Part shown: piece by piece, positions 52,424-63,802 of the stretch
How the letters are laid out: every line of letters starts with the position of its first letter
Numbering within the stretch: the stretch's first letter is position 1
Assembly: GCF_001413925.1 (NCBI RefSeq)
Contig: NZ_LBMJ01000001.1
Coordinates: forward strand, 2,954,001-3,018,000
Direction of reading: 5' to 3'
DNA: 64,000 bases
From: Nonlabens sp. YIK11
GTDB lineage: Bacteria; Bacteroidota; Bacteroidia; Flavobacteriales; Flavobacteriaceae
Translations under genes and position numbers: made by a program
Notes under the pieces: model-generated
The model's input: only the letters and a program-made list of their open reading frames with translations
What the model was told of the DNA's origin: nothing
Database searches by the model: none

Positions 52424-54229
52424 CTAGCTCAATTCCTTACCTCTACGTTTGCGCTCATTCTCGTCAAGATAGATTTTACGCAATCTCAAGTGGTTAGGAG
52501 TTACCTCTACATATTCATCCTTCTGGATGTATTCCAGGGCTTCTTCTAACGTGAACTTTACCGGTGGCGCAATCTTTACCTTATCGTCGTTTCCTGCACT
52601 ACGTACGTTGGAAAGTTTTTTGGTTTTAGTCAAGTTGATCGCAAGATCATCTGGTCTTGAGTTCTCACCTACTACTTGTCCACCATAAATCTCTTCTCCT
52701 GGATGGATAAAGAATTTACCACGATCCTGAAGCTTATCCATCGAGTAAGGAATCGCTGTTCCCTTTTCCATAGAAATCATGGATCCATTGATACGTCCAG
52801 AAATCTCACCTTTATAAGGTTCAAAACCTATAAAACGGTGGTTCATGATGGCCTCACCAGCAGTGGCGGTGATCAATTGGTTTCTCAACCCTATGATACC
52901 ACGTGATGGGATCTTAAATTCAATCAACATACGGTCGCCCTTAGGTGCCATACTGGTCATTTCACCTTTACGCAAAGTAACCATGTCAACTGCCTTACCG
53001 CTTACATTCTCTGGCAAGTCGATAGACAACTCTTCAATAGGCTCACATTTTACACCATCTACTTCCTTGATGATTACCTGTGGTTGACCTATCTGTAATT
53101 CGTAACCTTCACGACGCATGGTTTCAATCAATACAGAAAGGTGCAATACGCCACGGCCAAATACCATGAACTTATCTGCAGCACCAGTATCGTGTACCTG
53201 CAAGGCAAGGTTTTTTTCCAATTCCTTAGTCAAACGATCCTTGATGTGACGTGAGGTCACAAACTTACCGTCCTTACCAAAGAATGGTGAATCGTTGATG
53301 GTGAACAACATGCTCATGGTAGGCTCATCGATAGCGATGGTTTCCATAGCTTCTGGGTTTTCAAAGTCAGCCACACTGTCGCCTATTTCAAAACCTTCCA
53401 GACCTACGATCGCACAAATATCACCTGCCATGACTTCTTCTGCCTTGGCTTTTCCCATACCGTCAAAAACGTATACTTCTTTGACCTTTGTTTTGGTCAT
53501 AGAACCATCACGTTTGCACAATGTCACATTTTGTCCTTCTTTCATGGAACCTCTTTTTACTCTACCTATCGCGATACGACCGGTGTAGTTTGAGAAGTCT
53601 AGAGAAGTGATCAACATTTGAGTGGTTCCTTCTTCTACTTTAGGAGCTGGAACATGCTCAATCACCATATCCAGCAATGGCTCGATATTGCTGGTCTCGT
53701 TCTTCCAGTCCTCTGACATCCAGTTGTTTTTTGCACTACCATAAACGGTAGGGAAATCCAGCTGCCATTCTTCTGCACCCAATTCAAACATCAGGTCAAA
53801 AACAGACTCGTGTACCTCGTCTGGTGTACAGTTTTCCTTATCTACTTTATTGACCACTACACAAGGCTTCAAACCAAGGTCGATGGCCTTTTGCAATACA
53901 AAGCGGGTTTGTGGCATAGGACCTTCAAAGGCATCTACCAACAGTAACACACCATCTGCCATGTTCAATACACGTTCTACCTCACCACCAAAATCTGCGT
54001 GACCAGGTGTGTCGATGATATTGATTTTAGTACCCTTGTACATTACAGATACATTCTTTGCAAGAATCGTGATCCCACGTTCTCTTTCAATATCGTTGTT
54101 ATCAAGGATTAATTCTCCCGTATTTTCATTCTCACGGAAAATCTCACAGTGGTGCAAGATCTTATCAACCAGTGTGGTTTTACCGTGGTCAACGTGAGCA
54201 ATAATCGCAATGTTTCTAATATCTTTCAT
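52424..54229 (-). CDS. typA: Ribosome-associated GTPase TypA/BipA
   Basis: 601 residues. Translational GTPase involved in ribosome assembly, stress and cold response. The G-domain motifs are complete: [10 protein letters not shown] (G1), RGITI (G2), [12 protein letters not shown] (G3) and NKVDKE (G4), followed by a domain-II beta-barrel, an EF-G-like domain III and the TypA-specific C-terminal domain ([13 protein letters not shown]). Start at the ATG 54227-54229 giving [16 protein letters not shown]; the nine extra codons upstream are unlikely. It is the last core gene before the repeat-rich accessory region. Confidence 0.96.
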
Positions 54230-54256
54230 AAAAATAGCGCTTCTTAGCGGCTGCAA

Positions 54257-54708: not shown

Positions 54709-54863
54709 CATTCCTCTCGCGGTGCTCGTAGCATGCAGGTTTTTCACGAGAGGCTTCTATTCAACAACATTAACTATCTTCATCCATCAAAATCAATTAA
54801 GGCAAGGTAACAGCCAAACGTAAGGGAACGCCTCACATGCATTATAACTTTGCCGTTGGCATC
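54709..54863 (+). repeat. Structured repeat D1 (array left end, ends in core-like GTTGGC)
   Basis: About 150 bp nearly the same as D2 (59329-59487), including the block from TCTATTCAACAACATTAACT onward. It contains a CCTCTCG...CGAGAGG arm near its start, and ends TAACTTTGCCGTTGGC. The final GTTGGC (54855-54860) is the same core-type sequence that ends the B sites. An exact TAnnTTTG promoter box (54845-54852) lies inside, aimed at the cargo. It may be the leftmost, promoter-bearing recombination site of the array. No matching left arm could be fixed with certainty. Confidence 0.65.
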
Positions 54864-54940
54864 AAGCAATAAATACCCCATAAAGGGTATTGACTAATTG
54901 TAGATTAAGGTCTTATTTTAGGAGCTACGAATCGGAAAAA

Positions 54941-56253
54941 ATGAAAAAACTCATACTGTTCAGCATTTTTATTACAGGACTTTGCCTAAACGCACAAAAT
55001 GATTCTATTCTTGGAAACATCATTTACGACCTGGATTTAAGCAAACCCTCCATTGTAAATGAAAAGGGTTTAAAGGTTAAATCAAAACAGCAATTAGTGT
55101 TTAAACTTACCAATGCCAACCCGTTTAAGTACAAATATGTCCTAAAACATGAATATGTAAATATCTTTAAAGATGAAGCTTTAATAAATTTTGAGGATTA
55201 TATAATCCCGAAAGATTTACCAGCTGAAGAATTTGAAAAAATGGATGATAGTCTGGAAATCGATGCCAACAACAACATTAATGAAATTTTCGATCATTAC
55301 GGCGTTGTAAAAATCAATGAAGCTAAGACCGAGTTAAAAATTAAGTCAGATAGTGATTTAACTTTCAACGATTCTTTAAAGGTTGCGTCTCAACTCATAC
55401 TAACTGAACAGAAAAACCTATATAACGATATAGAGACCTACCTTAAAATACAACAAGGTGCAGATGTTATAAACCAAAACTTATTTTATTAAAAACGCGA
55501 TAAATATAGTAACGCATTTAATAGTATAAAGGATAGCCAACAATTGCTTTATGAAGCTTATTCTGATACAGAAAGTGATGATGATTTAAAGGCATTTTTT
55601 AAAGCAAATCAAAAATCTTATGTTGAAAATAGTTAGAACATCGTTGAGTTACTTAACAAAATGCTTTCAGCAAACTTTACACATTTTACTTTACCTATAG
55701 ATATTCACGGTAAAAACATAGATTTTGTAAACATTACCTTAGAGCGTCATACCATAGGTAGCGAAACCGAACCTGAAACGTATCACTATAGATTTTGGGT
55801 AACCAATGGCGTAAAAATAGACATTAGTGCAGGTATGTTTATCAGTTCAGTTCTTGATAATGAATATACTGCTATTGATGATACAGATAACCTAGGCCAA
55901 AAACGAGTTATTGAAAATGACAATGGACCCTATGACTTCGGCTTTGGCAGTATGGCCAATATAAAATATAGAGTCTACGGTACAATAGCACCAATGTTTA
56001 GTGTAGGTATAATGCTTACAGCTAATCAAAAATTTCAAATACTTGCAGGTCCTGGTTTAGCCATAGGAAAGGACGAGCGCATCATTATATCAGGTGGTGT
56101 TGCTATGGGGCGCGTTAACCGTCTTAGCAATACTCTGGAGTTAAATACACCTGTAGATTTAGTCACAAACGACATACCTACCAATCAAATGTTTGAAATA
56201 GGACATTTATTGGCATTACTTATAACTTAGGAAAATCTATTACCAAAAAATAA
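54941..56253 (+). pseudogene. Broken gene for a secreted/outer-membrane barrel protein
   Basis: One reading frame runs from the ATG at 54941 (signal peptide MKKLILFSIFITGLCLNAQ) to near 56200, but contains a TAA at 55490-55492 and a TAG at 55634-55636; the sequence on both sides stays in the same frame and stays protein-like. Near 56201 one base is missing: the next frame then reads TFIGITYNLGKSITKK and stops at 56251-56253, a typical barrel C-terminus. The intact product would be about 430 residues, with a helical N-part and a barrel C-part. Two stops plus a frameshift indicate decay rather than recoding. It is the first cargo of the array. Confidence 0.8.
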
Positions 56254-56284
56254 GTCTATCCAAACCCTTGTTTAAAATTATATT

Positions 56285-58797
56285 ATGAAAAGTACAATTC
56301 TCTATTTATTTATCCTCTTTATCACTATTCCTCTTTTTGCGCAAGATCAAAAATGTGAATGCTACTCCAAATCGGGAATAACTGAAAAAATCGGAATAGG
56401 AGGTTACGGTATGTTTAAAGATTATACAGATCCAGATGAAAGACAGTACCATTGGTATGCAGCTTACTTTCCATCAGAGGAACTTTGCTATCCTCGAGAT
56501 AATTACTGGTGGCAAGAAGTACAAACTAAAATTGCAGATGCTGTAGAGTTTCATCCAGTTTATTATGCTGCCAAAAAACAAATGCCCGAGATGTATAGAG
56601 AAAAGCCAATGGTTGCTAACCAAGCAGACATTCGGCAAAGCGATATTGATAGAGTTATAAAGACAGCGGCAGACCAAGGTGCCACACTACTTATTATTGA
56701 TGTAGACCTGGCCAGCTTTGCTAGGCCATTGCAGCGGTGTGCAGATATAAAAGAGGAAGACACAAACTCAACTTCCCAAGAAATCTCTGATACTTCTAAA
56801 AGTACGTCCAGCAGCTATAGCAGTTCTACATCCAGCAAGAAGGAAAGTAAAAAAGTAATGACTAGGGAGGAGTATGAAAAATCTAGGTTGAATATAAGCA
56901 ATTACAAGTTTTCTCAACGTGTTAAGGAACTTGAAATAAGAGGATACTCCAGCGGACAGGCACAGGTAATGGCAGATTACGAGCGCGATAATAGAAATAA
57001 TAAAGTGATTGTAGAAGAGTTGGGCAATGCCTTGGGCGGAGTGCTGGCAGATATATTTGACGGAAGCAATAAACGTATAAACAATGCAATGAACGAGAGG
57101 TGGGGAGATCAAGAATTTGAAAAACAGGGTAAAGCACTCAATCAAATCAACAAAGATGACATAGCTGAAATTCGAAAAAAATACGCATCAAAAAATATCC
57201 CAGACGAGCCAGACGATATAAAACAGTTCATCATGGAGTACTATCTATTATTTGGTAATAGATCCTATTATAGTTACGGCGCAATTGTGCAGCAAAGAAT
57301 TACCGATATTTATTTCGAGGGTGACAAACTTCGTTTAGATTTTGAGATAAAAACAGAACAGGGAATCGACGATAACAACCATCTTGGTGGATATTCATCA
57401 AGAAATCATGTTACTATTAAAGGGCAGCATCTTATGAATATAAAATTGGACAAAAAAATTCTTGGAAGTGCAATTAAACCAACCATACATCACGAAAGAT
57501 TTAATGCAGATAAGGCAAAAGTCTATAACATTTTATCATTTATGGAAAATTATCCAAACATAAGAGCGAACTGGAACAGCTATGATATAAAACCAGGGAT
57601 CTATAGTTTGCTTTCACAGCTTGAAAAACCCGATTATAGATTGATTGATATGTTCGATAAATTTGTAGAAGTCACAGACAATAGAGAAATTACAGTTGAT
57701 GATTTGCAGTTTGACCAATACTTAAAAAATGAATTGCCCAGGCTTGATAGAGTGCGAAATAAGGACAGCGAGAGAATAGAACCGGTAATTTGTAAATATT
57801 TAAGCACCGATAAAAAAACAATTGCACTTATGTATGTTTTGGATGACAGATATATCTATTTGACTTTTCCCATTTCAAACTTTGAAGGTACGGAGTGGCT
57901 CACAAACAATGACTACAAAACCCAATGGACTAATGCTCCACTGTCCTATTATTCCTCCACACATAAAGGTAAAAATGAAAAAATAGATTATAAAAAAAAT
58001 ACTATAAACCAGCACATTCGGCTATTTATGGTATTGGTGGAGAATCGGGATATGATGTAATGATGAGAAAAAATCCAGAAGAAATAGTAGAAGATATGAG
58101 TGTATATACATATGCCACTCCTTTTATAAGCTACAGATCTACCGATTTAAAGTTCTATAAAGAAGGGGAACCTGAACCACTTGACGCATTAAAAGGAAGT
58201 AACGGGTACAATTTTGAAAAACTTCTGTCGCCCACGGTACAGTTCGGGAAATTCAGCCCAATGATAGAGTATAAATTTCATAAAAATGCCGCTGGAAAGC
58301 TTAGGGAAAATGAAATTGAAAACAATAAGAAATTTTATAGGGATTCTGTTAATACAATAATGTATAATGTGAGTCAATATAGAGAAAAAAATTTATTCGC
58401 TATCATTCGGGCAGATAAGGTTAATTATACTGCAACCAGTAACAAGCCAATAAAACTGTTCTATAATGGGAATAAAAAATCATCCAGTAAAAATAAATTT
58501 TTGTTCAAGCCCACATTTGTGAAAGGAGGCTACGCTAGCCTGCCGCATTCAAGCAAGTTTAAGTATAGATTTTTTGATATTAACAATTTTATTCATTTCC
58601 TCAAAGAGACAATCTCCAAGGATTTTAGTATTACCAAAGAAGAGTTTAATGAAATTCTCGCTCTGCCCACTACTCTCAATACATACGACATGAACGCACC
58701 AGGCTATACCCACGTAATAAATATTGCCCAAAAACTAGAAAAGTATATAGAGCTAACAGATAATTATAGTACTGTTATTGAAAAATTAATGGAGTAG
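56285..58797 (+). pseudogene. Large secreted protein gene interrupted by a -1 frameshift at an A8 run
   Basis: The first part (56285-58060) encodes 591 residues with a signal peptide (ending LFAQ at about 20), a Ser-rich linker (about 165-190) and a mixed alpha/beta C-part. The second part (58060-58797) encodes 245 residues without signal peptide. The -1 frame can be read back from 58060 to about 58000 as YYKPAHSAIYGIGGESGYDV, continuing the protein smoothly, whereas the first frame quickly stops. The switch point is an eight-A run at 57992-57999. A single lost A (nine to eight) would explain it, giving about 836 residues originally. Programmed slippage is possible but less likely. No family is recognised. 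Confidence 0.7.
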
Positions 58798-58817
58798 AAT
58801 TAACATACTGAAACTGC

Positions 58818-59023
58818 CAGTTGCCAAAAACGACTATAAGTAATTCGGGATTAGGTGCTTAGCCCCAAAAAAATCGCTATTTTGCAAAGACCGCCAAAGC
58901 CTTGTTTTGGCTCATTAAAAAGAAAAGATAATAAGCAAGAAAACAAGGTTTTGGCTATGTACCTAATCGAAAGGAAAGTGCGTGTTTGCGCCCGCACTAC
59001 TCATAGCCAAGACCGTTCAGGCC
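58818..59023 (+). repeat. attC-like structured site E (long B-type variant)
   Basis: Starts near GTTGCCAAAAACGACTATAA (compare the start of B1) and ends TACTCATAGCCAAGACCGTTCAGG (compare ACTCATAGCCGAGACCGTTGGC of B1 and B2). The inside is longer than in the other sites, and folds with arms GATTAGGTGCTTAGCC / GGCTATGTACCTAATC and CAAAGCCTTGTTTT / AAAACAAGGTTTTGG. The core after it is GTTCAGGCC. The start motif is degenerate (GCCAAA instead of GCCAAC). The ORF that spans this element (58855-59274) is an artefact of the repeat. Confidence 0.65.
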
Positions 59024-59328
59024 AATTGCCTGCGGCCGTAGCTCTCCGCTATGAAATTTTGAAGCTAAGGCTTAGAATCACGAATCATTTGAGTGCCTGC
59101 ATTATCAAGATCTTCAACCAGTCAGGGGAACACAAAATTTCAAGACCTGTATGCCGGCAGACAGGCTTCCCATATACTCTTATGTCTTCCTCTCATTCCT
59201 ACCTCGCTCGTCGAAGACAGAAACGGCAACCGTTATTCAAAGCCTATTCAAAAGGTAGGTGTTTACCTGGATAGGATCTCGCTTCCTCCACCAACTGATA
59301 CGAACATAGCATAAAGCGCATAATGCAC

Positions 59329-59487
59329 GCATTCCTCTCGCGGTGCTCGTCGGATGCAGGATGCTCCACGCGAGGCTTCTATTCAACAACATTAACTATC
59401 TTCATCCATCAAAACCAATCAATGGCAAGGTTACAGCCAAACGTAAGGGAACGCCTCACACGCATTATACCTTTGCCGTTGCCAGTA
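59329..59487 (+). repeat. Structured repeat D2
   Basis: Near-copy of D1 over ~150 bp: CATTCCTCTCGCGGTGCTCG, TCTATTCAACAACATTAACT, the block with GTAAGGGAACGCCTCAC, and the end TACCTTTGCCGTTGCC. Contains the exact promoter box TACCTTTG at 59468-59475, 18 bases before the ATG of the 154-residue cargo. The arms CCTCTCGCG / CGCGAGG pair. The terminal GTTGCCAGTA (59478-59487) is complementary in nine of ten bases to TACTGCCAAC at the other end of the same cargo unit (59966-59975). Confidence 0.7.
59468..59475 (+). promoter_or_regulatory. TACCTTTG -7 promoter box in repeat D2
   Basis: Exact TAnnTTTG match 18 bases before the ATG at 59494. The same box (TAACTTTG, 54845-54852) occurs at the same place in repeat D1. 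No -33 TTTG lies at the right distance, so strength is uncertain. Confidence 0.5.
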
Positions 59488-59493
59488 ATTTAA

Positions 59494-59958
59494 ATGAACA
59501 ATAAACAAATAGATGTTTTAGACTATACGATTCACTTTAGATCTCTGTATAAGGATGGAATAATTGGCGAGTTATTTCATATAGTTCGTAAAGAGCATGG
59601 AGGAAGTTTGTTAACTCCTGTTGGTCACATTTATGGATTTATAGAGCCTGCATCTTTATATTCAGAATCATTTTGGAAAATCATTATCGATATACGAGAA
59701 GAGGTTAGATATCAAATTGACTCTCAATTAACTCACGTTTTTGTAAAGAGTGCATATAAGAATAAACTCAAGTTTACATTAACAAAATTGTTTGAATCAG
59801 AATCCAAAATAAAAAGAATAAACCCTCAATTTCCAGAGGTATTAAAAGACAAACTAATTGAAAGTGGATATTGTGTATCTCCAATTTCTATTCAAAAGAC
59901 AATTGGACAAAAATCTTATGTCTACTCCAATGTAAAATTCAATTTTGACTTTGATTAA
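59494..59958 (+). CDS. Hypothetical 154-residue cassette protein
   Basis: 154 residues, acidic and basic residues balanced, no signal peptide or membrane segment. It starts MNNKQIDVLDYTIHF, has a conserved-looking GHIYGFIEPASLYSESFWK and a basic patch KSAYKNKLKF, and ends NFDFD. I recognise no family. It is the sole gene of its unit between repeat D2 and site A1, in the same orientation as all other array genes. The D2 promoter box sits 18 bases upstream. Defence or small-molecule roles, common for cassette cargo, are only guesses and are not claimed. Confidence 0.65.
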   Translation: MNNKQIDVLDYTIHFRSLYKDGIIGELFHIVRKEHGGSLLTPVGHIYGFIEPASLYSESFWKIIIDIREEVRYQIDSQLTHVFVKSAYKNKLKFTLTKLFESESKIKRINPQFPEVLKDKLIESGYCVSPISIQKTIGQKSYVYSNVKFNFDFD

Positions 59959-59965
59959 AAAAAAC

Positions 59966-60103
59966 TACTGCCAACAATATATCACCGCAATTACGGCGGA
60001 TTCGACTACGTCCGAATCCACTCGGAATTGCTAAAGTTAGTGCTTAACCGAAAATTAACGCATATTAACCCGTAACTGACGGTTATAATAGACCGTTAGC
60101 TGT
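59966..60103 (+). repeat. attC-like site A1
   Basis: About 135 bp. Starts TACTGCCAAC (inverse-core type), followed by AATATATCACCGCAATTACGG; ends CCGTAACTGACGGTTATA, a short spacer, and GTTAGCTGT (core of the next unit). The arms CGCAATTACGG and CCGTAACTGACG pair with bulged bases, and an inner GGATTCG...CGAATCC hairpin (about 59998-60019) follows. It is nearly identical to A2 (61231-61372). The conserved AAAAACTA precedes the start, as in all sites of the array. Confidence 0.8.
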
Positions 60104-60133
60104 TCGGTGTGATTTGAGCGAAAATCTAGAAAA

Positions 60134-60164
60134 TTTGATTTTTTACCAAAAATTGGTATGTTTG
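60134..60164 (+). promoter_or_regulatory. ParDE promoter with operator-like palindrome
   Basis: TTTG at 60134-60137, then exactly 19 bases, then TATGTTTG at 60157-60164: a textbook Bacteroidota -33/-7 pair. Between the boxes lies the 15-bp palindrome TACCAA-AAA-TTGGTA (60144-60158), overlapping the -7 box, in the position expected for autoregulation by the antitoxin. Confidence 0.75.
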
Positions 60165-60179
60165 ATAAAAATGATTAAA

Positions 60180-60428
60180 ATGAAAAATACATCAATATCG
60201 CTCGGAAATTATTTTGACCAGTTTGTACAAACCCAAGTTTCTGCTGGACGGTATAAAAATGTAAGCGAAGTAATCAGAGCTGGACTTCGACTTTTAGAAA
60301 ATGAGGAAAGCAAAGTAATTGCGTTAAGAAATGCTATTCAAGAAGGAATTGATAGTGGAATTGCTCACGATTTCGACCCAAAAAAAAATCTTGAGGAATT
60401 AAAAGCTAAACGCAAAAAGAATGGCTAA
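60180..60428 (+). CDS. ParD-like antitoxin
   Basis: 82 residues from the ATG at 60180 (MKNTSISLGNYFDQFVQ). The N-terminal half is a ribbon-helix-helix DNA-binding domain (NTSISLGNYFDQFV, then YKNVSEVIRAGLRLL), and the C-terminal half is a charged toxin-binding tail (DFDPKKNLEELKAKRKK). This is the classical antitoxin design. The upstream in-frame extension overlaps the promoter and is not coding. It overlaps the toxin gene by eight bases, so the two are translationally coupled. The palindrome in the promoter is the likely binding site. Confidence 0.88.
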   Translation: MKNTSISLGNYFDQFVQTQVSAGRYKNVSEVIRAGLRLLENEESKVIALRNAIQEGIDSGIAHDFDPKKNLEELKAKRKKNG

Positions 60429-60720
60429 ATACGAATTGACCAATAAGGCTGTAGCTGACTTAAATAGAATTTGGGAGTATACAGTTGAGAATTGGTCTGA
60501 AAATCAAGCTGACAGATATTACGATATGCTTCTTGATATTTGCCAAGATATAGCTGACAATCAAGAATTAGGAAAAAACTATAATGGGATTAAATCTAAC
60601 CTTTTCGGACTAAAAGCAAATCGACACATAATATTTTATCGAAAAAGAATTGACCATCCGATTGAAATAACAAGAATTTTACACGGTCAAATGGATTTGA
60701 AAAACAGAATAACCGAATAA
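60421..60720 (+). CDS. ParE/RelE-type toxin
   Basis: 99 residues. The family pattern is clear: KYELTNKAVADLNRIWEYT at the start, NQADRYYDMLLDICQ in the middle helix, a LGKNYNGIKSNLFGL turn, then the closing HIIFYRK and ITRILHGQMD strands. ParE toxins poison gyrase, and RelE members cut mRNA; sequence alone cannot decide, but the terminal ILHGQMD resembles ParE. It pairs with the antitoxin just upstream. As cassette cargo such pairs can stabilise an array against loss, known from Vibrio superintegrons. Confidence 0.88.
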   Translation: MAKYELTNKAVADLNRIWEYTVENWSENQADRYYDMLLDICQDIADNQELGKNYNGIKSNLFGLKANRHIIFYRKRIDHPIEITRILHGQMDLKNRITE

Positions 60721-60727
60721 AAAAACT

Positions 60728-60863
60728 ACACTCAACAATGGCTATAAGTAATTGCTTGTTCTCGCCTACTTCTGAAAATCCTCACGGATTTTCAGTTTGG
60801 TGTGTACTTGCAATGTTAAGTGCTAAACCACGCAACTACTCATAGCCGAGACCGTTGGCATTA
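60728..60863 (+). repeat. attC-like site B1
   Basis: About 130 bp. Starts ACACTCAACAATGGCTATAAGTA and ends TACTCATAGCCGAGACCGTTGGC (core GTTGGC 60854-60859). The arms GGCTATAAGTA and TACTCATAGCC pair with one mismatch. The inner hairpin CTGAAAATCC-TCAC-GGATTTTCAG (about 60772-60795) has a perfect 10-bp stem. Very similar to B2 (62556-62698). The start motif matches its unit's core only partly (six of nine). Confidence 0.8.
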
Positions 60864-60869
60864 ATTTGA

Positions 60870-61217
60870 ATGAAAAACGCAATCAGAATTTTAATATTAG
60901 TATCATTTTTACAAAGTTGTTCAGAAAACAACATTAATCCTGACCTAATTGGACATTGGAAATCTACCAAAAGCGCGAATATTGTTGAATTAGAATTTTT
61001 CAAAGATTCTCTGATTTACAACGCTTGGGAAAAAAGAACTAAATTTTCTTGGAAAAATGACAGTACAAAAATTTACTATACGCAACTGACAAACATTGAC
61101 CCTGAATTAGAAACGGACTTTATAATGCATTACCGACTGAATTCGGAAAAAGACACTCTTTTCCTAAAAACCTCTGATACGGATTTCACAAATGAATTTA
61201 TAAGGTTAAATGAATAG
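60870..61217 (+). CDS. Small lipoprotein, lipocalin-like
   Basis: 115 residues. A lipoprotein signal ends in the lipobox LQSC (C17) followed by SENN. The mature domain starts DLIGHWKST and alternates strands (IVELEFFKDSL, KTKFSWKNDSTKIYYTQL-like strands, HYRLNSEKDTLFLK), as in small lipocalin-like proteins of the Bacteroidota envelope. Starting at 60870, about ten bases after the core of site B1, it has almost no leader, so it is probably transcribed from an upstream promoter. The ligand is unknown. Confidence 0.72.
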   Translation: MKNAIRILILVSFLQSCSENNINPDLIGHWKSTKSANIVELEFFKDSLIYNAWEKRTKFSWKNDSTKIYYTQLTNIDPELETDFIMHYRLNSEKDTLFLKTSDTDFTNEFIRLNE

Positions 61218-61230
61218 CAAAATAAAAAAC

Positions 61231-61372
61231 TATCGCCAACAATGTATAACGGCAATTACGGCGGATTCGACTACGTGCGAATCCACTCGGAATTGCTAAC
61301 GCCAGTACTTAACCGAAAATTAACGCATATTAATCCGTAACTGACGGTTATACCAAACCGTTAGGGCAAATT
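61231..61372 (+). repeat. attC-like site A2
   Basis: About 135 bp. Starts TATCGCCAAC (61231-61240), next AATGTATAACGGCAATTACGG; ends CCGTAACTGACGGTTATA, spacer CCAAACC, core GTTAGGGC (61360-61367). The outer arms TATAACGGCAATTACGG and CCGTAACTGACGGTTATA pair with a single bulged base, the sort of extrahelical base found in integron attC sites. The inner arm GGATTCG-ACTACGTG-CGAATCC forms a hairpin. A near-copy of A1. Confidence 0.85.
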
Positions 61373-61396
61373 TGCCAAAAAACCCAAAATTGAACT

Positions 61397-62553
61397 ATGA
61401 AAGAAAAATTTGTCCTTTTAATTACCTTCTTAATATTCGGACTAAATACTTCATTTGCGCAGAAATCTAAAACAATTGAAAAACTTGAGTTTGAGAATTA
61501 TGAACTTAAAGTTATATTTTTTGACCCTTACGAAAATTTAGTTTCAGAAAATCCTGAATTCAAAAGCCTTGACTCTCTAAAACAAGGAGAAATTTGGAAT
61601 AAATATTTACTTAACAATGTCATTTATGATTTTCAATTAATTCAAAAAAAGAAAATTGTTAAACATTATATTTTAAGAGGAAATTTATCAAAAGACATTT
61701 ACCCAAAAGATTTAACGAGAAATAATGTCTTTTTATTAGATATAGTAAATCATAAAAAGAACACTAATTTTTATAATTTATCAGACTATTCAAAAATGAT
61801 TGATAAAACAATCGATAAGTTCAGTTTTTATGGAACACTATTCGAGAATATGGAACTACTGAAAGATAACGATGGAAAATTAGGCAAAAACCTCTTTGGT
61901 AGATTTAGATTAAAATTCCTTATTCCACAATCCAGAATAATGTAATGACTTTAATAGGTTTTGACTTATTTGGAGAAATAGAAACTGAATGGATAGCAAA
62001 TAGCACAGAAGAATTTAAAAATTCATTTTTCGATTATCAAGAAAAAGTCGACCAATATTTCAAAATCGAAAGAATAAAAAAAACGTATGTAAGAACTTAT
62101 GACCAAAATGGAGAAATTCAAAATGAATATCCAAGGTTAAATACAGATGAGGATATTAAATCCTATATTGGAAAAATGAATAGAATTGGAGATGTAGTTT
62201 CTTTACCGTTTTTCAAATCTACTGACAAAGTAATTTTAATCGAAAAGGATAGTTTATACTCAAAATATAAAGTTGAGACTAAAAACAATAAACCGATTGA
62301 TAAGTATTTAGAAAATATTGTCGTCCTAAAAAATTCAGATGGAGAAATCGAGAATATTACAGCAACTCTTTTAATTCACGGCTCATCAATTGACAGAGGA
62401 GATTATGTTGAGAGAGAAAATTATATTGCATATTTCAAGACTTTTAAGGATTTGAGATTACCTTATAAAATTCTGTTTTCGCCATTAACTGACAAACAAT
62501 TTGAAAAACCACGAATTGAAATTGAATTAGATTATTTGTTCCATAGAAAATAA
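61397..62553 (+). pseudogene. Secreted protein gene, possibly split by a -1 frameshift
   Basis: Two overlapping reading frames. The first (61397-61945, 182 residues) has a signal peptide (ending TSFAQ, about residue 22); the second (61945-62553, 202 residues) has none and starts at an ATG overlapping the first stop as AATGTAATG. In the second frame the upstream bases read IKIPYSTIQNNVMTLIGFD, which joins on more naturally than the first frame's C-terminus (FLIPQSRIM). The -1 frame switch would fall near 61911-61917, in a TAAAATT stretch. One lost base would give an original of about 384 residues. Two translationally coupled genes remain possible. No family is recognised. Confidence 0.55.
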
Positions 62554-62555
62554 AA

Positions 62556-62698
62556 AACTTGCCCTAACACCGCGTATAATTAATGGCTAGTCCTCGCCTA
62601 CTTCTGAAAATCCTCGCGGATTTTCAGTTTGGTGTGTACTTGCAAAGTTAAGTACTAAACCACGCAACTACTCATAGCCGAGACCGTTGGCGGTAATT
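62556..62698 (+). repeat. attC-like site B2
   Basis: About 135 bp, near-copy of B1. Starts AACTTGCCCTAAC (62556-62568), complementary in twelve of thirteen bases to GTTAGGGCAAATT (61360-61372) at the start of the same unit. Inside lies the CTGAAAATCC-TCGC-GGATTTTCAG hairpin (about 62604-62627). Ends CTACTCATAGCCGAGACCGTTGGCGGTA with the core at 62686-62695 (the last part given in pieces here). Confidence 0.85.
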
Positions 62699-62700
62699 AA

Positions 62701-63401
62701 ATGAAATACTTTATCTACACATTAATAGTTATCAGTTTGAGTTCTTGCGGACAGAATAATTCTGCTGAAAAGGAATCAGACTTGGACATTCCTGTTTTGA
62801 AAGTTGAAAAACCACAAGAAGAGAAAGAGGTAATAGTAGAAGAACACACTTCTAACAGTATTAGATCGTCAGAAGTTCAAATGGACAAACCAAACTACAC
62901 GAATGGAATACAGCCTGACTTCTTTGATATAAATGCTTCTCAATTCAGCCAGTTTAAAGAAGATAGTTCTAAGTGGTTTATTAGTTCGGACGGTAAGAGC
63001 AATCTATATTTCGTTCCATATACTGACTACTCTATAACTACAGCAATTCTAACAGAAAAGAAATTACCGATCCGGAATTAATCAGTCTGCTACAATTTGA
63101 AGGAATAGAAGTCAATAACCACAAAAAGACCATTGAATTAAACAGGATTCAAACTGAGAAAGGAATAAGACTTGGCTTGTCAATTAATGAAGTAAAGAAA
63201 ATCTTTGGAACCCCTGATTCGGTCGAACAAGTAAATGACAAAGACTTGTTAGAGTGGCGTTTTGTTATGCTTGAAAATGAAGAATCCAATAAAGTTGGAG
63301 GGTTAAAACCTTTTGTTCTAGGAGGACTTGAATTCTTAGCTGAAATGGAATTTACAGAAAACAAATTGACCAAAGTAGTTTATAAATATGAAGTTCCTTA
63401 A
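62701..63401 (+). pseudogene. Lipoprotein gene split by a -1 frameshift
   Basis: The first frame (62701-63081, 126 residues) has the lipobox SLSSC (C16) and an acidic linker, and stops after KKLPIRN. The second frame, if read from about 63060, gives EITDPELISLLQFEGIEVNN and continues through 63177 to 63401 (KLTKVVYKYEVP) without a stop. The junction lies at a GAAAAGAAA stretch (63055-63063). One lost base would explain it. The reconstructed C-part (RLGLSINEVKKIFGTPDSVE) resembles SmpA/BamE-like small beta-alpha folds. The original would be about 233 residues. Confidence 0.75.
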
Positions 63402-63409
63402 GGAATAAA

Positions 63410-63480
63410 AACTACCGCCAACAACGTATAAAATTAATTGCTAGTGCAAGCCTACTTACGAAAATCCTCACGGATTTTCA
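63410..63480 (+). repeat. Truncated attC-like site (B-type left half)
   Basis: Starts AACTACCGCCAAC (63410-63422), complementary in twelve of thirteen bases to GTTGGCGGTAATT (62686-62698) at the other end of the same unit. It keeps the CGAAAATCC-TCAC-GGATTTTC hairpin (about 63459-63478), but the similarity ends near 63480, so the right arm and core are missing. This marks the right edge of the intact array. Confidence 0.75.
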
Positions 63481-63802
63481 GTTTGATAAGAAGACCAAAT
63501 AAAACCCATCCAGCACGCATTCCTCTTGTCATACATAGCAATGCCATATGTACTATACGATCCATCATTTGAGAATAACACATAACACCATCAATCAAAA
63601 CCAATCAAGGCAGTCCAACATTCAAATACAAGTTAACAATTACTCCATTTGAACAAAATTTGGTTCTCAATCACGCTGTCATTTAACAAACAGCGAGTTA
63701 AGTTGTTAAGTCTTTCTTAATCCAGCTAGTTATCATGGTATTAGTTTGGGTTTGGCCGTTGCATTTTTCACCTTTGCCGCTCACACAAAAAAGTGAATTA
63801 TT
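63481..63802. other. Right margin of the array, with a decayed D repeat
   Basis: No ORF. It contains pieces of repeat D: CAGCACGCATTCCTCT (63511-63526) and ATCAATCAAAACCAATCAAG (63590-63609), with poor match between. A later GGCCGTTGCA (63753-63762) and CACCTTTG (63769-63776) resemble the D1/D2 ends GCCGTTGGC and TAnnTTTG. The FKBP gene begins 26 bases after the box-like motif. Confidence 0.5.

Follow-up and report, generated by a model that had tools for sequence, protein, structure and literature searches.

The window analysed here, a stretch of 64,000 nucleotides (C1:2954001-3018000) from the 3.26-Mb, two-contig genome of the marine bacterium Nonlabens sp. YIK11 (label G000), carries an array of genes separated by large structured repeats. 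With a probability of roughly 0.92, we read this array as a decaying, integrase-less cassette cluster, functionally a cluster of attC sites lacking integron-integrases (CALIN), that belongs to an integron system of Bacteroidota whose tyrosine recombinase is not an IntI and lacks the IntI patch. Sequence comparison shows the cassette anatomy, the association with the recombinase, the strand bias of the sites, an exactly delimited cassette common to two genera and, within an isolate, one insertion at attI. Integron-type cassettes had been proposed in an earlier note made from the letters of the window, and this proposal is now strongly supported: the named repeats A1, B1, A2, B2 and truncated B exist, and all genes of the array lie on the + strand. 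The note had seen no integrase, and indeed the Phage_integrase model PF00589 has no match inside the window at E 0.01. The divergent integrase that it suspected has come to light outside, as PF00589 matches at the head of a second array in the same genome (C1:1016355-1017212) and at the window's own locus in a sister species.

Matches to the window's sites occur elsewhere in the host genome (14 of B type and 10 of A type, the window's five included), and 12 of the 24 cluster within about 20 kb at C1:996,000-1,015,300, hereafter the main array. Its head is a 285-aa tyrosine recombinase encoded on the strand opposite to the array, followed in order by an attI-like sequence (...TATACACTAG|TT), a 384-bp non-coding element, P, and the first cassette. 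The attI core reads ATACACTAGTT in G000, the sister species G001, G006, G014 and G017 (G labels denote genomes, L labels loci), and elsewhere a TATA-type core precedes GTT; attI cores and the inner arm of the sites have TATA and a similar spacer before GTT in common. The far end of the main array holds a second PF00589 frame (C1:994816-995244, L038; 491-aa open frame, 40.9 bits).

Each cassette begins with GTT and seven variable bases, and in most cases the cassette's own site opens with the reverse complement of this start, a 10-mer whose last bases are AAC. Circularity was avoided by defining sites by homology and taking starts from P ends and homology-defined sites, which gave 12 main-array cassettes. 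Their own starts paired at 7, 7, 7, 7, 7, 6, 6, 7, 5, 5, 7 and 3 of the seven positions (mean 6.17, versus 2.20 for other starts), own pairing was perfect in 7/12 versus 0/132 other combinations, and none of 10,000 permutations was as good. The lowest value, 3, belongs to a site whose nearer true start (24259) is missing from the homology list, and the result is unchanged when the test includes 14 sites, for two of which the starts had been supplied by a pairing finder. The claim of own-site specificity rests on the main array. The core is GTT plus seven cassette-specific bases, so GTTGGC and GTTAGG, which the earlier note took for core variants, are individual cassettes rather than a consensus.

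The finder selected stems of at least 9 with spacers of 2-4 and 4-7, a choice that in part fixes both the range of spacers and how well positions 1-9 pair; positions 11-14 and the 12-site test are free of this selection. On the 36-kb main-array region it returned 60 pairs and 39 links, against 7-17 chance pairs and 0-1 links in each of ten shuffles. Site anatomy was read from 209 finder cassettes at 38 loci. Cassette-start positions 5-10 vary widely yet pair, position 4 is G or A in 204/209, and position 11 sets an A in the cassette against a C in the site in 188/209, an A.C on the top strand that is a G.T on the bottom strand. Positions 12-14, which played no part in selection, pair in 83-92% and those beyond in 13-22%, so that the outer stem consists of 10 bp, the A.C position and three pairs. 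The conserved AAAAACT that the earlier note saw before the sites finds its place here, as it holds the C of this mismatch. The spacers are 3 and 5-6 nt long in 186/209, and the AAC-GTT distance is 110-129 in 165/209. Shorter sites, with an AAC-GTT distance of 52-54 bases, the same rule and similar spacers, occur at a Rufibacter locus (L104), where seven finder cassettes follow a member of the recombinase clade.

The bottom strand was the more stable one in 198 of 204 unique reconstituted sites of up to 300 nt (mean -30.2 vs -25.9 kcal/mol). When position 11 was paired in silico it was still more stable in 188/204, so this bias is not due to position 11 alone. The folds contain 203 A.C positions, of which 188 are position 11; outside it, A.C occurs 15 times and G.T 5 times. 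According to excerpts of PMC2727003, the substrate of canonical integrons is the bottom strand, and an extrahelical base is the main factor in its choice.

Against the IntI model TIGR02249 the main-array recombinase scores 168.8 bits, short of the cut-off of 265, and its best NCBIfam model is XerA NF040815 (189 bits, below the cut-off of 220). The IntI patch of ~42 residues is absent: the motif spacing is 63-69 residues in 62/62 clade rows, against 106 in 12/14 IntI rows, those measurable. An 89-row tree places the array-type recombinases in a single clade (62 rows, 97/94; arrays were checked for part of these rows) and IntI in a separate one (14 rows, 100/100), some branches being long and the joining forks weak. 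The predicted structure (predicted local distance difference test, pLDDT, 83.6, with low values at 249-260) has XerA and IntI4 as its nearest Foldseek matches, with PDB 4a8e and 5hxy (XerA/Xer-like) the best matches by E-value and IntI4 2a3v reaching a template modelling (TM) score of 0.72. Integron-like anatomy and association, taken with the missing patch and the separate clade, suggest a system that works like an integron and is not an IntI integron. That the window's repeats are ordinary attC sites of an IntI system is not supported, given that the recombinase fails both the patch and the clade tests and the sites are without GTTRRRY.

Evidence for mobility comes from cassettes shared as exact units. 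A 628-bp main-array cassette recurs behind a co-directional integrase in a genome of another genus (G061) at 98% identity (11 mismatches), and this identity stops at the cores, the 100 bases on either side being 33% identical. G001 has a counterpart of the window's parDE cassette (98.3% identity over 767 bp), the match stopping no more than 5 bases from the cores. In this sister species the interval between the bipA and FKBP genes that flank the window array holds an integrase, attI and seven finder cassettes over ~20 kb, and other window cassettes had no long match in that array apart from P. The presence of integrase, attI and cassettes at the same locus is why we read the window as a decaying, CALIN-like remnant. 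When the main locus of the host (C1:1016241-1017186) is compared with the bipA locus of G001 (C4:1857659), the segment comprising integrase and attI shows 94% identity over 946 bp; by this alignment, the recombinase/attI platform occupies different chromosomal places in the two sister species. Neither conserved gene order among relatives nor imprecise boundaries, which the earlier note held to speak against cassettes, were found: the G001 array differs with one cassette shared, boundaries are precise, and in nine further Nonlabens genomes (of the 21 other than G000 and G001) the bipA locus yielded no finder cassette on either strand. Within one isolate, a 14-kb contig of G017 (C2) carries the array of the chromosome again, but with an additional P placed exactly at attI, behind a left flank of 6,855 bp without mismatch. 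This additional copy matches two internal P copies without a difference and departs from its neighbour at 8/376 positions, which argues against simple tandem duplication.

The recombinase is widespread. It was matched at 1e-40 in 17/23 Nonlabens genomes (host included), and at 1e-70 its family appears in 187/299 sampled Flavobacteriaceae and 143/295 sampled Bacteroidia genomes, figures that count recombinases, not arrays. At 31 non-Nonlabens Flavobacteriaceae loci (28 genomes of up to 3 contigs, among the matches listed) and 11 Nonlabens loci, at least 2 cassettes lay on the array side in 25/31 and 6/11 cases, 31/42 overall. Two layouts occur, co-directional (21 loci) and divergent (4 loci and Nonlabens), and the array sides hold 203 finder matches, 135 downstream on the same strand and 68 upstream on the opposite strand; shuffled loci (one shuffle per locus) gave 10. 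The survey was made by family and class because a broad contig scan with A1 had mixed in many unrelated recombinases among the matches listed. In that scan 10 of 80 loci had at least 2 finder matches, seven reading as chains (L104, L105, L107, L118, L119, L129, L166) and three as chance (L097, L098, L108), with 6 matches in shuffles of the 80 loci; L166 is a patch-bearing IntI and by chance serves as a positive control for the finder. Many recombinase matches of the family survey lie a few hundred bases from a contig start, and short-read assemblies may therefore break at such arrays. One genome (G180) has two array loci, L176 and L177, whose recombinase rows are identical in the tree, and none of 28 homologous cassette pairs joins them. 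Phage records gave no recombinase match at 1e-40.

The window array lies between a gene that we take, from its open reading frame (ORF), to be bipA/typA-like (52424-54256, minus strand) and one that we likewise take to encode an FKBP-type isomerase (from 63804). It runs from a P remnant through the ~4-kb cassette c1 and a P element to the cassettes c2 to c6, among them the parDE toxin-antitoxin pair, which matches Pfam PF03693 and PF05016 (Table 1). The long repeat E of the earlier note proves to be two things, an attC-like site that ends c1 and a separate P cassette, the latter a diverged copy of the 384-bp main-array element (76 bp at 89%, 230 bp at 79%). A1 and A2 are 90% and B1 and B2 88% identical, and the left and right arms of B2 resemble different site types. 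Single-strand folds gave z < -2.4 in 6/8 cases, the remaining two being -2.34 and -1.70; direct folding of integrated sites left the strand ambiguous, and it was resolved once a site was folded with its own cassette start. Pairing in the window was counted explicitly over 14 positions, the relaxed finder having overlooked several window sites: own starts pair at 12/14 for A1, 11/14 for A2, 13/14 for B2 and 12/14 for truncated B, with A.C at position 11 in all four, and B2 is the sole clearly specific site (13 versus at most 8 for other starts). The own-start stem of c1 is so short (6/14) that this cassette is decayed or composite, and judged by its pairing the window array as a whole is partly so. 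A Pfam scan of the first three c1 ORFs (54941-55492, 55661-56230, 56285-58060) gave no match, and an Rfam scan of the window array gave one chance-like match only (E 0.69).

Table 1. Parts of the cassette array, in positions of the window
Feature	Position	Strand	Details
P remnant (3' end of non-coding P cassette)	54745..54854	+	opens array; ends at core GTT 54855; 88% over 111 bp to main-array P
Cassette c1, ~4 kb	54855..59014	+	closed by the long attC-like site E (about 58818-59014)
ORFs of c1	54941-55492, 55661-56230, 56285-58060, 58060-58797	+	
P element, non-coding cassette copy	59015..59477	+	between cores GTT 59015 and GTT 59478
Cassette c2	59478..60094	+	ORF 59494-59958; attC-like site A1 59966-60094, AAC 59973-59975
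Cassette c3	60095..60853	+	parD 60180-60428, parE 60421-60720; attC-like site B1 60734-60853, AAC 60734-60736
Cassette c4	60854..61359	+	ORF 60870-61217; attC-like site A2 61238-61359, AAC 61238-61240
Cassette c5	61360..62685	+	ORFs 61397-61945, 61945-62553; attC-like site B2 62566-62685, AAC 62566-62568
Cassette c6	62686..63485	+	ORFs 62701-63081, 63177-63401; truncated attC-like site (truncated B) 63420-63485, AAC 63420-63422, 3' side truncated

In the mechanism that we propose, a patchless, non-IntI tyrosine recombinase would recognise the folded bottom strand of an attC-like hairpin, in which the 10 bp of the outer stem (GTT+7) would be followed by a G.T wobble and 3 bp, and spacers of 3 nt and 5-6 nt would part this outer stem from an inner, TATA-containing stem. 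The recombinase would insert a cassette at attI (TATA-N6-7-G|TT) beside its own gene and excise it again. Catalysis by this recombinase, a single-stranded substrate and cleavage at G|TT are what we infer, and the window array was probably once headed by an integrase, as the locus in the sister species still is.

Several observations weigh against this reading. The patch is described as a defining feature of IntI, necessary for recombination, in the excerpted text of PMC9668308 and PMC2426708, and it is absent here. Within the window, two of six cassettes are unpaired with their own starts (c1/E 6/14, parDE/B1 7/14), a foreign start pairs A1 (12) and A2 (11) as well as their own, and two other starts reach 11 at truncated B, where the own start reaches 12. 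The parDE unit lies at the same locus in G001 and so may be inherited and not moved. The G017 contig may have arisen in assembly, as 2 mismatches and 8 one-base gaps occur in the flank on its right. Among the surveyed loci, 23 finder matches (12 + 11) fall in the two unexpected quadrants, and fewer than 2 cassettes were found at 6/31 non-Nonlabens and 5/11 Nonlabens loci, three of the latter having none and two of those three lying within ~250 bases of a contig end.

Other explanations must account for the same data. That the repeats are dispersed elements like repetitive extragenic palindromes (REP) or miniature inverted-repeat transposable elements (MITE), with the gene order produced by chance insertion or by homologous recombination between repeats, would suit the spread of sites over several places in the genome (12/24 are in the main array) and the existence of identical tandem cassettes, which homologous recombination can make; we nevertheless consider it extremely improbable, as main-array units carry their own start-to-site complementarity, a shared cassette ends exactly at the cores, arrays sit on the array side of the recombinase and the extra P at attI is no copy of its neighbour. 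Nor is there much chance that the adjacent recombinase is a bystander and that the housekeeping XerC/XerD, or a canonical IntI encoded elsewhere, does the moving of cassettes. The host genome does encode XerD and an XerC-like protein, and canonical IntI passes the TIGR02249 cut-off in 105/395 Bacteroidota genomes, but that model has no match in the host genome at E 1e-45, 1 of 108 matching genomes in its survey is listed as of the same class, and it is the adjacent family that heads arrays in many genera and in two polarities, with attI beside it.

A true IntI integron whose integrase has secondarily lost its patch is an explanation that we find unlikely, though it deserves real weight. The similar site anatomy, the bottom-strand bias, an LSPL-type C-terminus and the TM score of 0.72 to IntI4 all fit it, as does the fork, weakly supported (81/88), at which the IntI and array clades join. 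The short spacing in every one of the 62 clade rows speaks against such a loss, as does the full support (100/100) for IntI as a clade of its own, with four non-integron rows weakly placed on its side.

P occupies 13 positions in the main array, in full or in part, with the five copies nearest attI 100% identical and identity falling with distance from attI (Spearman -0.89, 13 copies). Its 3' end in three Nonlabens genomes (G000, G006, G014) reads TACCTTTG, which fits the Bacteroidota -7 box TAnnTTTG. As the P-type elements of G003, G017 and L183 are without a promoter motif of this kind, a general promoter role for P was dropped. One P type is common to G000, G006 and G014, with different ones in G017, G003 and L183, and non-coding P-type cassettes with perfect palindromic ends recur in the main array (L025/L026) and at L058, L063, L064, L060, L183 and L243; a similar palindromic type is found on a Chryseobacterium plasmid. 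Such cassettes may supply promoters or may be satellites parasitic on the system. Just before the co-directional attI core at L192, L193, L194 and L195 stands a perfect palindrome (e.g., CACCACCGGTGGTG), which may be a terminator or a recombinase-binding site.

Cassette contents were examined in 198 unique cassettes of up to 2.6 kb. The longest ORF lies on the array strand in 174, on the opposite strand in 13 and is missing in 11, and it starts a median of 25 bases after the core. Among 93 cassette proteins scanned (13 from the host genome and 80 drawn from 155 others) there were 65 Pfam families, none with more than two members, and some proteins match phage-defence models.

A possible link to resistance genes emerged from plasmids, where 63 records matched the recombinase at 1e-40, 49 of them from Acinetobacter. 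In one Acinetobacter record (L242, NZ_CP041290.1, 4998-6881) a 175-aa C-terminal recombinase fragment immediately precedes tet(X3), on the same strand and following a TATA...CACTTG|TT core, and in L245 (NZ_CP084417.1, 4106-5727) a 203-aa C-terminal fragment immediately precedes blaVEB-3, also on the same strand; both genes are placed behind the fragments as a first cassette would be. The best matches of the fragments in our comparison set are clade members (67% for the tet(X3) fragment, 57% for that of blaVEB-3), followed outside the clade by L124 (54%, 51%) and L116, from Firmicutes and archaeal metagenome-assembled genomes, then by other recombinases, with IntI at most 36% and 39%. At stem 9 the finder accepted no site in either of the two plasmid stretches, and at stem 7 it gave one chance-like match in that of tet(X3), so the link remains a lead. 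In excerpts of PMC7473080 and PMC11194056 xerD is noted beside tet(X) without a mechanism, which PMC7473080 leaves to future validation; for tet(X14), xerD is described as lying upstream and pointing the other way, an arrangement that would agree with the divergent layout and not with the co-directional one.

If our reading is correct, there is a large pool of cassettes that would escape software relying on the IntI patch or on the standard attC model, the patch would not be needed for hairpin-based cassette systems, and the question of why 'xerD' adjoins tet(X) would have a testable answer. In excerpts of the IntegronFinder 2.0 paper, Salinibacter ruber is named as the complete integron in Bacteroidetes itself and integrons are reported as rare there; the present kind of recombinase, in contrast, occurs in about half of the sampled Bacteroidia species. 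A search of titles and abstract openings in the open-licence PMC literature, without preprints and with few subscription papers, found no description of such a system among the matches listed. More tentatively, and at less than even odds, this could be a second, independently evolved class of integron, distinguished by a patchless clade of Xer-like integrases and by a bottom-strand hairpin code of its own. It would be the main route of gene capture in Bacteroidia, would carry cassettes from genus to genus and amplify non-coding P cassettes, which possibly bear promoters, and would have been the vehicle by which resistance genes of Bacteroidota, tet(X) among them, were initially mobilised.

Among known systems the sedentary chromosomal integron, e.g., the Vibrio superintegron, is the closest; exchangeable gene cassettes are also the mark of the integrons through which antibiotic resistance spreads. 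The canonical attC core has the consensus RYYYAAC / GTTRRRY, which the present sites do not follow, their R box being GTT and seven variable bases. The two systems share an array headed by a tyrosine recombinase and attI (a head that the main array has and the window lacks), mostly single-ORF cassettes on one strand, a preference for the bottom strand, here suggested by site anatomy and strand bias, and a cassette exchanged as an exact unit, here in one case between genera. Entry of cassettes at attI is indicated by the attI cores, the extra P in G017 and the gradient of P divergence. Both also have hairpin sites in which R and L boxes can be told apart and the R stem is long (9-11 nt in canonical sites, 10 here; excerpts of PMC2727003). 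The recombinase differs in having no IntI patch and in lying outside the IntI clade, the sites in their A.C/G.T at position 11 in 188/209, and the arrays in their divergent or co-directional integrase and repeated non-coding P cassettes. The window resembles a CALIN in its several sites, missing integrase and decay, with at least 2 sites (A1, A2, B2, truncated B) pairing with their own cassettes, and differs in the new type of its sites. XerA/Xer-like recombinases (NF040815, 4a8e, 5hxy) provide the best NCBIfam model and the best structural match by E-value; the present recombinase differs from them in heading cassette arrays, with XerD and the XerC-like protein encoded as separate genes. The xerD-tet(X) and blaVEB Re contexts differ in having no stem-9 site in either plasmid stretch and resemble the present system in the same-strand C-terminal fragments, close to the recombinase clade, that precede tet(X3) and blaVEB-3; the blaVEB Re element, given as 135 bp long in one excerpt, is like our sites in size.

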